The notes under the pieces were generated by a model. The model did no database searches. It was not told the origin of the DNA and saw only the letters and a list, made by a program, of their open reading frames with translations. A DNA stretch of 55,159 nucleotides from Candidatus Poribacteria bacterium (GTDB lineage: Bacteria > Abyssobacteria > SURF-5), in NCBI GenBank assembly GCA_016215705.1, contig JACRIR010000073.1, positions 1 through 55,159 of the forward strand. The letters are read 5' to 3'. This document shows, piece by piece, positions 21,063-27,365 of the stretch. Position 1 is the stretch's first letter. Each line of letters opens with the position of its first letter. Position numbers and translations under genes: made by a program.

Positions 21063-21482
21063 ATGAAAGCGACGAAAATCCTATGGGTAGGCGTTCCGCT
21101 TGTTTTTCTGATTGCAGTGGCAGCGGCGCAGTGGGGAGCGGGCGCCAAACGCAGACCCGAAGTGTGGGTTCGGCAGATTGTTGTCAAAGCTGACGCGATG
21201 AAGCCCGAAGACGTTGAGCGGGCGCGCCGCAAGATCGATGAGGTATATACAGAGCTGAAGAAGGGAACCGACTTCAAACGGCTTGCTGCAAAACAGTCGG
21301 AGGCGGACAGTTCGCGACAGGAGGGTGACCTCGGATGGATTGGGAAAGGCATCCTGCCCAAGCGTCTTGAGGAGGTCGCGTTTTCGCTTCAGCCGAAACA
21401 CTATAGCGCAATCGTGTCTGAAATCGGACCAGAAGTTCATATTTATCGCATCTTCTATGTGGAAGAGCGCCGCAATTTCTGA
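21063..21482 (+). CDS. Small parvulin-type peptidyl-prolyl isomerase, exported or membrane-anchored
   Basis: 139 residues. An N-terminal hydrophobic segment (ILWVGVPLVFLIAVAAAQWGAGA) is a signal peptide or anchor. It is followed by one rotamase domain: VRQIVVKADAMKPEDVERARRKIDEVYTELKKGTDFKRLAAKQSEADSSRQEGDLGWIGKGILPKRLEEVAFSLQPKHYSAIVSEIGPEVHIYRI. The GDLGW and AF-L-G/K-S-x-I-V-x-S patterns are those of SurA/PrsA-type parvulins. It lacks the chaperone domains of SurA or PrsA, so it would be a minimal periplasmic folding helper. The RBS is weak (GAGGA 15 nt upstream). Confidence 0.8.
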   Translation: MKATKILWVGVPLVFLIAVAAAQWGAGAKRRPEVWVRQIVVKADAMKPEDVERARRKIDEVYTELKKGTDFKRLAAKQSEADSSRQEGDLGWIGKGILPKRLEEVAFSLQPKHYSAIVSEIGPEVHIYRIFYVEERRNF

Positions 21483-21764: not shown

Positions 21765-23813
21765 ATGGAGTCTCGCGCAGGCAATTCCAATGAGTTGACG
21801 AAGTTCTTGCGCGCGCACAAAGAGTCGGTGGTGGACGACTGGATTGCCAGTTTGAGGTTGGAGCGCGCGCTGGGGAGGAAGTTGCCCCAATCAGGTGACC
21901 GACAGAAGCGACGAGAAGTGTTTGCCGGTCTTTATGACTCATTCCTGGCTCCTTTGTCCCAACCTGCCCACGGTAAGAAGCCTCAAAGCGTTCGCCTCAC
22001 CAAATCCCAGCAACAGAGCCTCAACGTCTTGTCGATCCATGAAATCCAGCGGTCACAGGTCGTTCTGCTTGATATCCTTTGTGCGATAATCCGGAAGCAA
22101 TATCGCGCCCATCCGAAGAAAGTCGAAAAACTCATCTCTCTCCTCAACAATCGGATACATGAGCTTATTGTGCAGACAAGCGCTGCCGAATCAAAACGTC
22201 GCCGGAAGGCGGCGGGCCGCACGGAGGGCAAGTACTCCCGGTTGCTGGACGTGGCGACGGATGCCGTTTTCCTGTTGAATTACGATTCGGGACTCTTCGT
22301 CGAGGTGAACAAGGCCGCTTGCGGGCTCACAGGCTATTCTGAATCGGAGCTGAAGCAGATGGGATTCAATTCGCTTGTGTCCGTTTTCGACTTGAATCTT
22401 GCGCTTGAGCGAGCGAATACCGCTGCGGAGAGAGGCACTGTCCGTTTTGATGACCTTTCGATATACACGAAGAAAGGAGCAGCGGCGCCGGTCGATATAA
22501 GCGCCAGCGCCGTGATGATCGATGGCAGCAAGCACATTCTCGCGGTCATGCGCGACATAAAGGAGCGCAAGGCGTTTGAGAGTTCGATCAGGCAAAAAGC
22601 CGAGCGGCTGCAACTTGTGAATGAGATTGCTCACGCTATCAGCTCGAGCGACCTCGACATCGAAGCGGTGCTGACGGCAATATTGGAAAGCGTCGCGCGC
22701 GTCATAAAGGTGGAAGCCGGCTCGATCCTGAAGTTGGAACAGGGTGAGTTGATATTCATGGCCGCGTTGGGCGAGAAGTCTGAGTATGTCAAGCCATTCC
22801 GTCTCAAGCCGGGACAAGGCATCGCCGGTTGGGTTGCAGAGACAGGAGAAGGGGTAATTGCGCGCAATGTTCATAACGATCCGCGTTATTATCCTGAAGT
22901 CGAACGCGCCACTGGCTTTGTATCAAGATCGATCCTGGCCGTTCCCATGAAGGCGGGCGGCGCGATCATAGGAGTCATAGAACTCATCAACAAGGTCGGC
23001 AGCCAGTTCAGCAAGACCGATCTCGACCTCATGAATGTGATATCGCAGTTTGCGGCCGTGGCGCTCGAGCATGCCAGGCTTTTCTCGGAGTCCGAACGCG
23101 CCAAAGGATATCTCTCGCAAATGCACTCTCCGGTTTCTTCTTCGCGATTGGCGGCGGTGGTCGCGCAGGAGATGAAAGACCCTTTGGGTATCATCAAGAA
23201 TTATGTGCGCATTCTTACGGATAAGCTTGCTGCGGGCGGAGACCGATTCGAGGAGCTTGCCGTGGTCGCTGAGGAGATAGACCGTATCGCCAGCATTACG
23301 GATCAACTCCTGTATTTCTCCGAAGGGTACTCGGAAGCTCCGAAGGTGACTCCCCTGAATCTGCTCATCGAGAATTCCGTCGAGTCGATGCGAGAAAGAC
23401 TGCAGGCGGGCGGGATCGCGACGGAACTCAAGATGGAGAGCGCGCTGCCTCATGTTTCGGTAATACCGAATCAAATGAAGATGGTATTCTCGAATCTCAT
23501 ACGGTTGGCTATTGCGGAAATGCCGCACGGCGGCACGTTGATCGTTGCCAGCCGAAGGAGTGATTCCGCCATATATATCGAATTCTCAAACACCGGGGCC
23601 AAACATGCGGAGGCGGACGCCAATGAACTGTTCTTACCCAGCGCAGTTGCAAAGGGACTGGTTCCTAAAGGGCTGGGACTTTATATGGTGTATAACATCG
23701 TCCGGAGCTACGGAGGCGATATCGAGGTCAAATCGCGCAGGGGACGCGGAAACACGTTCAGTATTACGATACCGGTGAACACCGGCGTCCAGGGAGCCGG
23801 AGCGCTGCAATGA
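21765..23813 (+). CDS. PAS-GAF histidine-kinase-like protein lacking the phospho-acceptor His (pseudokinase)
   Basis: 682 residues, cytosolic. An N-terminal helical domain (1-140, RsbR-N/globin-like in spacing), a PAS domain (about 155-275), a GAF domain (about 285-440), then a DHp-like and a C-terminal ATPase-like domain. The H-box reads VVAQEMKDPLGIIKNYV, with Gln468 where the phosphorylated His should be. The N-box reads NLIRLA, with Leu581 in place of the Mg-binding Asn. The G1 box is SNTGAKH, lacking the Asp, although a GLGLYMV G2-like box remains. Autophosphorylation is therefore not expected; it may dimerise with or modulate the next protein, whose H-box region (HEINNPLGIIKNYV) is nearly identical downstream of the His. 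It ends in ATGA overlap with that gene. Confidence 0.85.
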   Translation: MESRAGNSNELTKFLRAHKESVVDDWIASLRLERALGRKLPQSGDRQKRREVFAGLYDSFLAPLSQPAHGKKPQSVRLTKSQQQSLNVLSIHEIQRSQVVLLDILCAIIRKQYRAHPKKVEKLISLLNNRIHELIVQTSAAESKRRRKAAGRTEGKYSRLLDVATDAVFLLNYDSGLFVEVNKAACGLTGYSESELKQMGFNSLVSVFDLNLALERANTAAERGTVRFDDLSIYTKKGAAAPVDISASAVMIDGSKHILAVMRDIKERKAFESSIRQKAERLQLVNEIAHAISSSDLDIEAVLTAILESVARVIKVEAGSILKLEQGELIFMAALGEKSEYVKPFRLKPGQGIAGWVAETGEGVIARNVHNDPRYYPEVERATGFVSRSILAVPMKAGGAIIGVIELINKVGSQFSKTDLDLMNVISQFAAVALEHARLFSESERAKGYLSQMHSPVSSSRLAAVVAQEMKDPLGIIKNYVRILTDKLAAGGDRFEELAVVAEEIDRIASITDQLLYFSEGYSEAPKVTPLNLLIENSVESMRERLQAGGIATELKMESALPHVSVIPNQMKMVFSNLIRLAIAEMPHGGTLIVASRRSDSAIYIEFSNTGAKHAEADANELFLPSAVAKGLVPKGLGLYMVYNIVRSYGGDIEVKSRRGRGNTFSITIPVNTGVQGAGALQ

Positions 23814-25822
23814 TCGAATCGGGACGGCAGACATCTCGCGCCTCGATCAGCCGGGGACTCAGCAAGAAGTTTGTTTTGCCCATCATAGTCGGCGCGGCCG
23901 CCACGATAGTATGGGGAGCAATTTTCGGGTACTACCATGCCTACAAGCTCAGGCGCGAGGGACTGGGAGCGTCGATGGAGCGCGCCGCCGAGAGCCTGTC
24001 GGCGCAAATGGATACATCGCTGGAGACAGCGGTCGAACTGATGACCCAACTTGCCGCCTCTGCGCAGATACGTGACACCGTCGCAGAGCGCGACAAGAGA
24101 TATGGCTCTCTCTCGAACGCCGAGATGTCCGAGTTGGTACTTCAGGAATCGGCGATTCTGAGGGCCTCGAAACAACCGCAGGCATTGCTTGACGCCCTCA
24201 AGTCGAACCCGATTGCCGACAAGTTGAAGATGTTTGCATCGGGAGCGCCGGGGTTTCGCGTTCTTGGCATCACTGACCGGGCAGGCGTTCTCATGGCTGC
24301 ATTTGGTGAAGCGGCCTCGTCACACCCGAAACCGGAGGAGTGGTGGCAAGTGGCCGAAATCATGGAACATGGAAAAGTTGTTATCTCCGAGCCAACGTTT
24401 ACGGAAAAGACCGTCTCCGCCACCGTCCGGATACACGTGCCCATCATGGCTTCGGAATCGGCAGGTCTTCTCGGAGGGTTGGACGCCGAATACAGCTTCG
24501 ACAACATTATCTCTCAACTGGACGCGGAGGATGAGATCGTCGCTTTCCTTCTGTCCGACTCGAACGAGAGACGTCTGTACATTCTAAGTCCACCGGATAT
24601 GGTCGCATCCAAACCGGTGGAATTCAGTGAAAAAGTGGAGAAGGTGAGGCCCAAAGAACACGGTTGGTCGCTGCTCGAGCTCGAAAAGGGCGGTGGGACC
24701 GTCGTCGCGGGCTTTGCGCCGATCGAACATTCTTTGGCGTTGCGGTCTGTCGTTTATCAGGGAAAGGACTGGAGCGCCGTTACTGCCGCGCAGGAAAGCC
24801 GGGTGACCGGGCCCCTGAACTCCCTTTTCGTGGGTATACTCGGGTTTAGCGCACTGATGCTGGTTGCGCTTTCCACGGGCGGGATAATGCTGGCCCAGAG
24901 GACGCTCAGACCCATCCGCGTGCTTCAGGAGGGGGTGCAGGAAATCGGGCAAGGAAATCTCGAACACCGGATTGACATACGGAGCGGAGACGAGATTGAA
25001 ATGCTCGCGCTCGAGTTCAACCGCATGGCGGAACGGATGCAGCGCACCCAAGAGCAGTTGCAACGGAGGGGCAAGGAACTGGAACAGCGCGTCAATCAGT
25101 TGAGGAGATTGCAGGCGCAGCTCATGCAGTCGGAGCGAATGGCGGCCACAGGCGAGCTTGCGGCCCAAATTGCGCATGAAATAAACAACCCGCTCGGCAT
25201 CATCAAGAATTACGTCGGCATTGCGAAAATGCTCATGGTGGAAGAGGACCCGAACCGCGAAAACATGAAGATTGTCGACCAGGAAATAAACCGCATAGCG
25301 GGCATAGTACGCAGGCTCCTCAAGTTTGCGAAGCCTGGGACCGAGGATATCCAATCGGTGCAGATAAACCAGGTGCTCGAGGAGTTGCTTGCTCTTTTGC
25401 GCGGACAGCTTTTCCGCAGGAAGATAGAGATTTCGACGGAATTCGCGGAGAATTTGCCCGAGGTCAGTGTCTCGACCGACCAGATGCGGCAAGTGTTCTT
25501 GAATCTGATAAAAAACGCCGAAGACGCGATGTCGGACGGCGGCAAACTGAGCGTGCGCACGCGCTACAGGAAAGGCCGTGTCGAGATAGACATCGCCGAC
25601 ACCGGTTGCGGGATACCCTCAGAGAATATCAAGAATATTTTCGAGCCGTTCTTTACCACGAAGGGAGTGAAAGGCACCGGGCTTGGGCTATCCGTTTCAT
25701 ACGGAATCGTCAAGAATTACAATGGCGAGATAAGCGTAGACAGCGAGCCCGGCAAGGGCGCCACGTTCACCATCCAATTGCCCGTGGTGAGCGAAAAGGT
25801 GTTCCAGGTTATTCGTTCATGA
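23810..25822 (+). CDS. Membrane sensor histidine kinase (sensor-HAMP-HisKA-HATPase)
   Basis: 670 residues. Membrane helices at about 21-43 and 336-362 frame a periplasmic double-Cache-like sensor (44-335). A HAMP linker follows (RTLRPIRVLQEGVQEIGQGNLEHRIDIRSGDEIEMLALEFNRM), then a coiled coil. The DHp domain has the acceptor His456 in IAHEINNPLGIIKNYV, and the ATPase is complete (NLIKNAEDAM, IADTGCGIP, FFTTKGVKGTGLGLSVSYGIV). It is an intact NtrB/AtoS-class kinase. Its start overlaps the stop of the pseudokinase (ATGA), implying coupled translation and stoichiometric production. Likely partners are the two receiver proteins downstream. Confidence 0.92.
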   Translation: MIESGRQTSRASISRGLSKKFVLPIIVGAAATIVWGAIFGYYHAYKLRREGLGASMERAAESLSAQMDTSLETAVELMTQLAASAQIRDTVAERDKRYGSLSNAEMSELVLQESAILRASKQPQALLDALKSNPIADKLKMFASGAPGFRVLGITDRAGVLMAAFGEAASSHPKPEEWWQVAEIMEHGKVVISEPTFTEKTVSATVRIHVPIMASESAGLLGGLDAEYSFDNIISQLDAEDEIVAFLLSDSNERRLYILSPPDMVASKPVEFSEKVEKVRPKEHGWSLLELEKGGGTVVAGFAPIEHSLALRSVVYQGKDWSAVTAAQESRVTGPLNSLFVGILGFSALMLVALSTGGIMLAQRTLRPIRVLQEGVQEIGQGNLEHRIDIRSGDEIEMLALEFNRMAERMQRTQEQLQRRGKELEQRVNQLRRLQAQLMQSERMAATGELAAQIAHEINNPLGIIKNYVGIAKMLMVEEDPNRENMKIVDQEINRIAGIVRRLLKFAKPGTEDIQSVQINQVLEELLALLRGQLFRRKIEISTEFAENLPEVSVSTDQMRQVFLNLIKNAEDAMSDGGKLSVRTRYRKGRVEIDIADTGCGIPSENIKNIFEPFFTTKGVKGTGLGLSVSYGIVKNYNGEISVDSEPGKGATFTIQLPVVSEKVFQVIRS

Positions 25823-25865
25823 AGGATACAATGGTATCGTATCGGGTCCGGGGGAGTATATTACG

Positions 25866-25906
25866 ACAAATCGGCGACACGATGCGACATTGTGTTCCCG
25901 ATTTGT
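25866..25906. repeat. GGGGACAC-family hairpin (diverged)
   Basis: 15-nt arms ACAAATCGGCGACAC (25866-25880) and GTGTTCCCGATTTGT (25892-25906), two mismatches, 11-nt centre. It lies between the kinase gene and the receiver gene, so it would form in the polycistronic mRNA if they are co-transcribed. Confidence 0.7.
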
Positions 25907-26013
25907 TGTAGAGGTGTCCCGGTCAGGCGGAACTACGTCCCGGACAAAGGCTGCAGGGCCGCAATGAGTTGCGCCCGAGTTGGCAAGACATTAAGGCGAG
26001 AGGGGGACCATCT

Positions 26014-26661
26014 GTGGCGGAAAGAAGCAAGATACTGGTGATAGACGATGAAAAGCGCATGTGCGACAGCATAAAGGTGCTGCTGTCAAACATCGGCTAT
26101 GAGGTGGACACCGCCGAGAACGGCCGCATCGGGATAGAGAGGCTCAAGGCGCAGGAATACGGCCTTGTCATAACCGACCTGATGATGCCCGAGCTGGATG
26201 GCTTCGCCGTGATGAAGCACATAAGGGAGAACTGTCAGAACACGCTCGTAATAGTCATCACGGGCTATGCGTCAGTCGAGTCGGCGGTCAGGGCCATCCG
26301 GAGCGGCGCATATGACTACATTCTGAAGCCGTTCGACTTCGAGATAATAAAGATTTCGGTCGAACGGGCGTGGGACAAACTTAAGCTGGAGAAGGAACTG
26401 GAGAAGACGCGCAAGCTGGCGCAAGTGGCCGAGCGCGCACTCGCAATGAACAATGAACTCAACAATCCTCTTTCGGTCGCCTCGGGCTTTGCTCAACTAC
26501 TGCAGATTCGGGCCGAAAACAGCGGAGACGAAGTCTTGAAACGTCAGATCGATTCGATTGTGAAGGCTTCCGAGAGTATTCATCAGATGACAACGCAGTT
26601 TCGGCGGTTTGCGCACACTTTGCTGAACGAAAACGCCGAACATGATCTGGGCATGATGTGA
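26014..26661 (+). CDS. Receiver domain fused to a His-less DHp-like segment
   Basis: 215 residues. Residues 5-120 form a CheY-like receiver: acidic pair DD at 11-12, phospho-acceptor Asp55 in LVITDLMMPE, Thr83 in ITGYAS, Lys105 in LKPFD. After a coiled linker (LEKELEKTRKLAQVAERA), residues 140-200 read like a HisKA DHp helix pair: AMNNELNNPLSVASGFAQLLQI...IVKASESIHQMTTQFRRFAHT. Asn147 occupies the phospho-His position, and no ATPase domain follows. It could dock on the kinases through DHp-DHp contacts instead of binding DNA. The start is GTG 26014 (GAGGGGGA upstream); the TTG at 25969 is unlikely. Confidence 0.85.
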   Translation: MAERSKILVIDDEKRMCDSIKVLLSNIGYEVDTAENGRIGIERLKAQEYGLVITDLMMPELDGFAVMKHIRENCQNTLVIVITGYASVESAVRAIRSGAYDYILKPFDFEIIKISVERAWDKLKLEKELEKTRKLAQVAERALAMNNELNNPLSVASGFAQLLQIRAENSGDEVLKRQIDSIVKASESIHQMTTQFRRFAHTLLNENAEHDLGMM

Positions 26662-26727
26662 CGGGGACTTTGCCCGGATTCTTAACCCTGAACCCGAAAC
26701 CTTGAACCATTTCCCTAGGAGAACCAG

Positions 26728-27111
26728 ATGGCGGAGAGCAGAAATATTCTTATAGCCGACGATAACGAAGAAGCTCGCCAACTTTTTTGTGACATAATCA
26801 AGCTCCTGGGTTTCACGCCCAAGGCGGTCAGCAGCGGAGTAGCCGCGCTTCAACAACTCAAAGTAACCCCCTTCGACATGGTTATCCTTGACATGCGCAT
26901 GCCCGACCTTAACGGCCTCGACACATTCAAAGCCATCCGCCAGTTCGATTCGTCCGTGCCCGTCGTCCTCACGACCGGCTTCGGAATGGACAAAGGTGTG
27001 CAAGAAGCCCTGAGCCAGGGGGCGCTCCTATGCCTGGAAAAACCATTCAACGTTGCGCGCACGATGAAAACCATCCGCGAGATCGTCGAGAAGGAATCAC
27101 CCAAGAAATAG
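26728..27111 (+). CDS. Stand-alone response regulator receiver
   Basis: 127 residues, a single CheY-like receiver: Asp11-Asp12, phospho-acceptor Asp55 in MVILDMRMPDLNG, Thr82/Thr83, Lys105 in CLEKPFN. There is no output domain, as in CheY/Spo0F-type relay or hub proteins. ATG follows AGGAGA with 6-nt spacing, 66 nt after the previous stop. Together with the three genes upstream it forms a compact signalling cassette with no DNA-binding output encoded locally. Confidence 0.9.
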   Translation: MAESRNILIADDNEEARQLFCDIIKLLGFTPKAVSSGVAALQQLKVTPFDMVILDMRMPDLNGLDTFKAIRQFDSSVPVVLTTGFGMDKGVQEALSQGALLCLEKPFNVARTMKTIREIVEKESPKK

Positions 27112-27183: not shown

Positions 27184-27365
27184 TGTTGCCCAAATGAAAT
27201 TGCGCTTCATGGTGCTGTTAGGATTGTCATTCTGAGGAGCGAAGCGACGAAGAATCTCTCGTTTTCCTGCAAATTTGCGACTTAATAGACAGAGATTCTT
27301 CGCTTCGCTCAGAATGACAAATGGCTCGCTCAGAATGACAACCGGCTACTACCATTTGGGCAACA
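27184..27365. repeat. MITE-like element with terminal and internal inverted repeats
   Basis: 13-bp terminal inverted repeats TGTTGCCCAAATG (27184-27196) and CATTTGGGCAACA (27353-27365). Inside is a second inverted pair: TGTCATTCTGAG...AAGAATCTCT (27225-27259) against AGAGATTCTTCG...CAGAATGACA (27291-27319), plus a short extra GCTCAGAATGACA copy. The inner arm also occurs near position 32-53. It encodes no protein, so if mobile it would need a transposase in trans. Confidence 0.6.

Follow-up and report, generated by a model that had tools for sequence, protein, structure and literature searches.

A four-gene Abyssobacteria locus in which an intact histidine kinase lies beside a pseudokinase and a receiver-DHp protein

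Organization of the locus

The DNA analyzed here (the window) is a stretch of 55,159 nucleotides from a genome of Candidatus Abyssobacteria, and four genes follow one another on its forward strand. The first gene, PK (21765..23813, +), encodes a pseudokinase consisting of an N-terminal helical region, PAS and GAF domains, a DHp segment with Gln468 at the acceptor position (codon CAG, 23166..23168, +), and a degenerate CA domain. The second, HK (23810..25822, +), encodes an active-type membrane kinase arranged as TM-dCache-TM-HAMP-DHp-CA, with His456 in its DHp. The stop codon of PK and the start codon of HK overlap as ATGA (23810..23813, +). The third, RD (26014..26661, +), encodes an NtrC-type receiver followed by one continuous helix and a DHp hairpin with Asn147 at the His position, without a CA domain. 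Its start was taken as the GTG at 26014 (215 aa), which is common to its orthologues and gives the numbering of Asn147. The fourth, REC (26728..27111, +), encodes a single-domain receiver of 127 aa.

The gaps between HK and RD (191 bp) and between RD and REC (66 bp) are each about 20 bp in the two other genomes described below, and the spacing of the four genes is consistent with an operon. In all three genomes PK is immediately preceded by a PpiC-type parvulin gene (21063..21482, +, in the window), of which the membership in the unit is uncertain. Downstream of REC, the non-coding part at 27220-27340 of the window contains an apparent inverted repeat (tcattctgaggagcgaagcgacgaagaatctctcg ... 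agagattcttcgcttcgctcagaatgac), which may be a dispersed element.

The Pfam search found PAS, GAF, HisKA, and HATPase_c in PK; dCache, HAMP, HisKA, and HATPase_c in HK; and Response_reg in REC. The HisKA (PF00512) scores of PK, HK, and RD were 32.3, 36.9, and 30.8 bits, all of which exceed the curated cut-off of 26.9. RD, which the preliminary description had read as a receiver joined to a DHp segment, indeed matched both Response_reg (E-value 2.6e-28) and HisKA (3e-7) above the cut-off, and both receivers keep their phosphorylation sites, the Asp and Lys sites of REC being intact. The best kinase model of NCBIfam was AtoS for PK and HK, and that for the receiver of RD was AtoC; every one of these scores is well short of its equivalog cut-off. 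Judged by these matches, the module resembles a pair of the AtoS/AtoC type in which the sigma-54 and DNA-binding parts of the regulator are replaced by a DHp hairpin. None of the four genes of the unit encodes a DNA-binding output, in agreement with the earlier view that the cassette has no local transcriptional output.

Residue losses in PK and RD and their conservation

HK keeps His456 as well as the N, G1, and G2 boxes, its H-box being HEINN, and its sequence predicts that it is capable of both kinase and phosphatase action. In the alignment to HK, PK lacks the N-box Asn (Leu581) and the G1 Asp (NTG instead of DTG, in NTGAKH). These residues, Gln468 (CAG), and Asn147 had been named with their coordinates in the preliminary description, and all of them were verified.

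The window genome gave 69 HisKA matches, and after one 60-aa fragment was left out the H-boxes of 68 were examined. The His was missing in three of the 68, namely PK, RD, and an orphan membrane kinase. The misses of the N-box/G1 pattern were inspected by eye, and PK alone among the 68 domains lacked both the N-box Asn and the G1 Asp. Among the HisKA proteins of this genome, the CA domain was absent only from RD and from the C36 protein, which keeps its His. The orphan kinase (682 aa, with HAMP; contig C80, 15702-15905, -, L174) has a His-less HisKA domain (DICDGLNNPV), and its N, G1, and G2 boxes look intact.

A first scan of genome contigs with PK found no relative. Searches at the levels of order, class, and phylum all returned the same three genomes of Candidatus Abyssobacteria, and the conservation described here therefore rests on these three, which represent three genera. 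The order parvulin gene-PK-HK-RD-REC and the ATGA overlap were identical in all of them, so that the co-occurrence of the four genes, proposed earlier as a check, was found in three of three. PCMT and UvrA lie downstream in just one of the two orthologous stretches examined. The HAMP-DHp-CA part of HK is 88-93% identical between species and its sensor about 36%; the values were 90-93% for the receiver of RD, 73-81% for its linker and DHp, 78-83% for REC, and 57-79% for the PAS/GAF/DHp/CA part of PK (PAS/GAF 65-75%). Pairwise dN/dS, quoted only where dS was unsaturated because saturation was frequent, was 0.02-0.17, the fast-evolving PK N-terminus and HK sensor aside. Since the residues that flank the losses are conserved under purifying selection, the losses in PK and RD do not look like decay.

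The N-box Leu and the missing G1 Asp of PK were found in all three orthologues. The acceptor position is Gln (CAG) in the window, His (CAT) in the genome SURF_17, and Arg (CGG) in the third genome, amid a stretch, VVAxEMKDPLGI[IV]KNY, that is invariant in all three. It had been expected that both the Gln of PK and the Asn of RD would be conserved across orthologues. This held for Asn147 of RD (AAT, AAT, and AAC) but not for Gln468 of PK, and none of the three genomes has His at both positions, SURF_17 having it in PK only. These results indicate that PK can do without its acceptor site and that Gln468 is no functional substitute for the His; a codon that varies within invariant flanks fits selection for docking, not for phosphoryl transfer.

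The residue four positions after the acceptor (+4) is Asp in all three PK proteins, the sole Asp among the 62 scored H-boxes of the window genome. In CrdS, the N375D mutant showed no phosphatase activity (PMC3510030). Because PK has no ATP-site Asn or Asp, does not require a His, and carries Asp at +4, it is predicted from its sequence to be dead in every activity, with binding alone left to it. The model of its DHp-CA part was of moderate confidence (pLDDT 74.5), with helices at 16-49 and 55-83 followed by a CA fold, and the closest solved structures include ZraS, HK853, KinB, and DivL (4q20).

Within its genome PK matched HK best (129 bits; the next match 90 bits). The tree did not group PK with HK (PK has a long branch, and a support of 0.76 placed it elsewhere), and such a tree supports neither paralogy of PK and HK nor a shared dimer interface. 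An origin of PK by tandem duplication with HK was thus set aside, despite the BLAST result. The tree grouping of PK with the kinase upstream in L061-L063 was also not adopted, since that kinase is short (about 250-266 aa) and has the His and the G1 box.

The near-identity of PK and HK after the H-box (NPLGIIKNYV), which had been noted at the outset, is real. However, a similar motif recurs in the AtoS/ZraS-like subfamily (NNPLGIIRNY in L061, NNPLGIITNY in L033); being largely a subfamily property, it is no particular evidence of pairing and speaks less strongly for a bond between PK and HK than first implied. Outside the phylum, several top matches of the HK core (45-51%) directly precede top matches of the RD receiver (43-57%), which suggests that the pairing of these kinase and receiver types is old. 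In L033/L034 and L061-L063 such receivers head full kinases.

In RD the +4 residue is Asn (Asn151) in the window and the third genome, and Ser in SURF_17; in all three genomes the chain ends after the DHp, without CA. The model (pLDDT 84) consists of the receiver, a single helix (109-167) that carries Asn147, a turn, and a second helix (173-213). In the Foldseek search receivers ranked first, and LvrB (8vc9) was among the top 50. The receiver of RD is closest (45-57%) to those of REC-DHp-CA kinases. RD may nevertheless not be a mere truncation of such a kinase, because its receiver-to-DHp spacing is 42, as in the CA-less proteins described below, versus 33 in L033/L034.

The PAS/GAF part of PK is conserved, but the extracytoplasmic sensor of HK is not and is partly deleted in SURF_17; the input therefore seems to come partly via PK. 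The SURF_17 HK (L031:5381-7201) has 606 instead of 670 aa, with about 65 sensor residues missing, and its kinase core is 91% identical to that of the window.

Possible roles of the four proteins

Pseudokinases are well studied in eukaryotes; among bacterial histidine kinases, to our knowledge, few are known, chiefly DivL. It is also known that RetS of Pseudomonas regulates GacS through hetero-oligomers, a relation comparable to that proposed for PK and HK; RetS differs in being a hybrid kinase of the membrane whose gene is not located with that of GacS.

DivL of Caulobacter, which acts with DivK and CckA, is a PAS-bearing DHp-CA protein without the acceptor His (PMC4211667), like PK of the window and of the third genome; PK of SURF_17 has the His. 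The partners of DivL include a live kinase as well as a single-domain receiver, and its structure (4q20) matches the fold modeled for PK. However, DivL retains a conserved Tyr as well as the N, G1, F, and G2 boxes (PMC4211667), whereas PK has lost the N-box Asn and the G1 Asp, varies at the acceptor position, and belongs to another sequence family. With these losses in all three genomes, PK may work like a DivL-type pseudokinase without being a member of that group, and a cell-cycle role is not implied. The LvrA-LvrB-LvrC set of Leptospira resembles HK-RD-REC in its order: a kinase, a REC-long helix-DHp protein, and a receiver protein (PMC13269768). LvrB has an uninterrupted REC-alphaS-DHp helix, and helix 109-167 of the RD model agrees with this continuous-alphaS feature of LvrB-type REC-controlled histidine kinases; LvrB also has His161 and a CA domain (PMC13269768), and RD has neither. 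FasB and FasC of Streptococcus are, like PK and HK, two kinase-like proteins of one operon with partial, complementary functions, and a two-hybrid assay supports their heterodimer; they differ in that both are membrane-bound, the output is a DNA-binding regulator, and there is no REC-DHp protein (PMC12675982). ChrS-HrrS is a further precedent (PMC9491836).

The first interpretation, in which two dead DHp modules dock on or heterodimerize with the active kinase and thereby gate phosphotransfer, is partly supported. The catalogue of parts, as read from the sequence, is solid, and from it we infer their job and all links between the four proteins. Our best reading, to which we give a little less than an even chance, is a branched two-component module similar to DivL and FasBC, in which a single kinase works and two DHp proteins are non-catalytic. 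HK would phosphorylate RD and/or REC. PK would sense signals in the cytosol through PAS/GAF, as a subunit pairing with the DHp of HK; alternatively, its RR-docking face may bind a phosphorylated receiver, in the way that DivL binds DivK~P. Either way, PK would shift HK between its kinase and phosphatase states. Phosphorylation of the RD receiver may move the long helix and change the exposed face of the DHp hairpin, so that RD would be a phospho-switched docking partner unable to pass the phosphate on. The output may then consist of protein-protein contacts that REC or RD makes with targets elsewhere.

We favor this docking and gating over the idea that RD is a receiver-controlled, kinase-dead phosphatase, although both can hold together. 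On the phosphatase idea, which we regard as rather unlikely, phosphorylation of RD switches the dephosphorylation of REC (or of RD in trans), and HK and RD form a kinase/phosphatase pair. The H-box residue that a HisKA phosphatase needs, the +4 Asn, is kept in the window and the third genome, and in CrdS this Asn is essential and the His is not (half-life 2.6 min with H371A versus 0.7 with the wild type and 53.5 without enzyme; PMC3510030). The +4 residue is nevertheless Ser in SURF_17, and CrdS N375A, N375Q, and N375D abolish the activity (PMC3510030). A DHp-only EnvZ phosphatase was reported by Zhu 2000, as cited in PMC8971529, but the activity was not reproduced in mammalian cells (PMC8971529), and PleC requires its His.

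PK may instead have begun as a phosphotransfer protein, either ChpT-like or phosphorylated in trans, in which the ATP site was lost first, the His served as a relay (and may still do so in SURF_17), and the His was later lost in the other two genomes. The SURF_17 protein has the His and scores 25.1 bits with HPTransfase (PF10090; cut-off 22.9), and a protein with His and a degenerate CA also adjoins a His-less REC-DHp-REC protein in genome G157 (L285). On the other hand, PK of the window and of the third genome lacks the His and falls just below the cut-off (21.7 and 22.7 bits), ordinary HATPase_c outscores HPTransfase in all three, and the ChpT partners CckA, CtrA, and CpdR are absent nearby. 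With the His lost in two of three genomes, a relay cannot be the shared function, and we find this origin improbable. Scarcely better placed is the view that PK and RD do not depend on HK and serve as sinks for receivers or as scaffolds, for example a PK homodimer that binds REC or RD, with neither a heterodimer nor direct gating of HK. Each appears in the models to have a complete DHp hairpin suitable for homodimers, and the putative receiver-docking helix of PK is among its best-conserved parts; the fact that PK and HK overlap by ATGA in all three genomes hints rather at coupled translation and stoichiometric assembly. Neutral decay, that is, His loss through relaxed constraint in genes being lost, would account for the variable acceptor position of PK, but in three genera the frames are open, the gene order is kept, and dN/dS is low, with invariant residues all round the site, which makes it very improbable.

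The single elements of the module have precedents: the dead kinase in DivL, REC-DHp in LvrB, and the operonic kinase heterodimer in FasBC. In the open-access papers searched we found neither a live kinase combined with two distinct His-less DHp proteins nor a His-less, CA-less REC-DHp protein. The locus suggests that an operon of a deep-subsurface bacterium keeps 'dead' kinase parts for docking or gating, and two His-less DHp proteins beside a live kinase make such docking-based wiring testable in four proteins.

Receiver-DHp proteins without a CA domain in other lineages

When other lineages were searched with a CA-less REC-DHp profile (A6), many further proteins of this kind were found. They are spread over many lineages and were not found described as a class in the open-access papers searched. 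Like RD, they have a receiver and a DHp hairpin without CA (L226, L227, L235, L264, L265, L270-L282, and others), and in most of those measured the spacing from Lys-Pro to the H-position is 42 residues, as in RD. The His was kept in 25 of the 26 proteins read, a sample drawn by similarity to RD and not a census; the 26 include the C36 protein and its two orthologues. Proteins that keep the His were noted at L226, L227, L235, L256, L264, L265, L268, L270, and L272-L282. It is possible that the His-keeping proteins form a receiver-coupled phosphotransferase class. Most of them, about 20, share a C-terminal tail resembling Y-x-x-G-x-x-M-[IVL]-D-[ILM]. It may be a remnant of the DHp-CA linker (VDLN), and RD lacks it.

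In the REC-DHp-REC fusions L245, L249, L251, and L252, parts like RD and REC, here encoded by adjacent genes, are joined in one chain, which suggests that RD and REC work together. The lone His-less exception among the 26 is such a fusion in G157, with Asp at the His position (L249/L285). It belongs to a trio (L285:6292-9709), analogous to the present set, consisting of a 231-aa DHp protein that keeps its His, the REC-DHp-REC protein, and a REC-PAS kinase. HATPase was not detectable in the 231-aa protein, whose CA is degenerate, and the neighboring kinase is ordinary.

A bolder view, which we consider possible but doubtful, is that the locus is a self-contained, phylum-specific operon in which one live kinase would be gated, without any phosphotransfer, by two dead DHp proteins, one of the sensor type and one of the receiver type. 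In that case the His-less REC-DHp protein would represent a new response-regulator output, a phospho-switched hairpin for kinase docking or phosphatase action, and the G157 set may mean that such a design evolved repeatedly.

At L230:4502-11998 and L231:2603-8998, kinase genes of more than 2100 aa with GAF-like matches were observed directly upstream of a REC-DHp-CA kinase.
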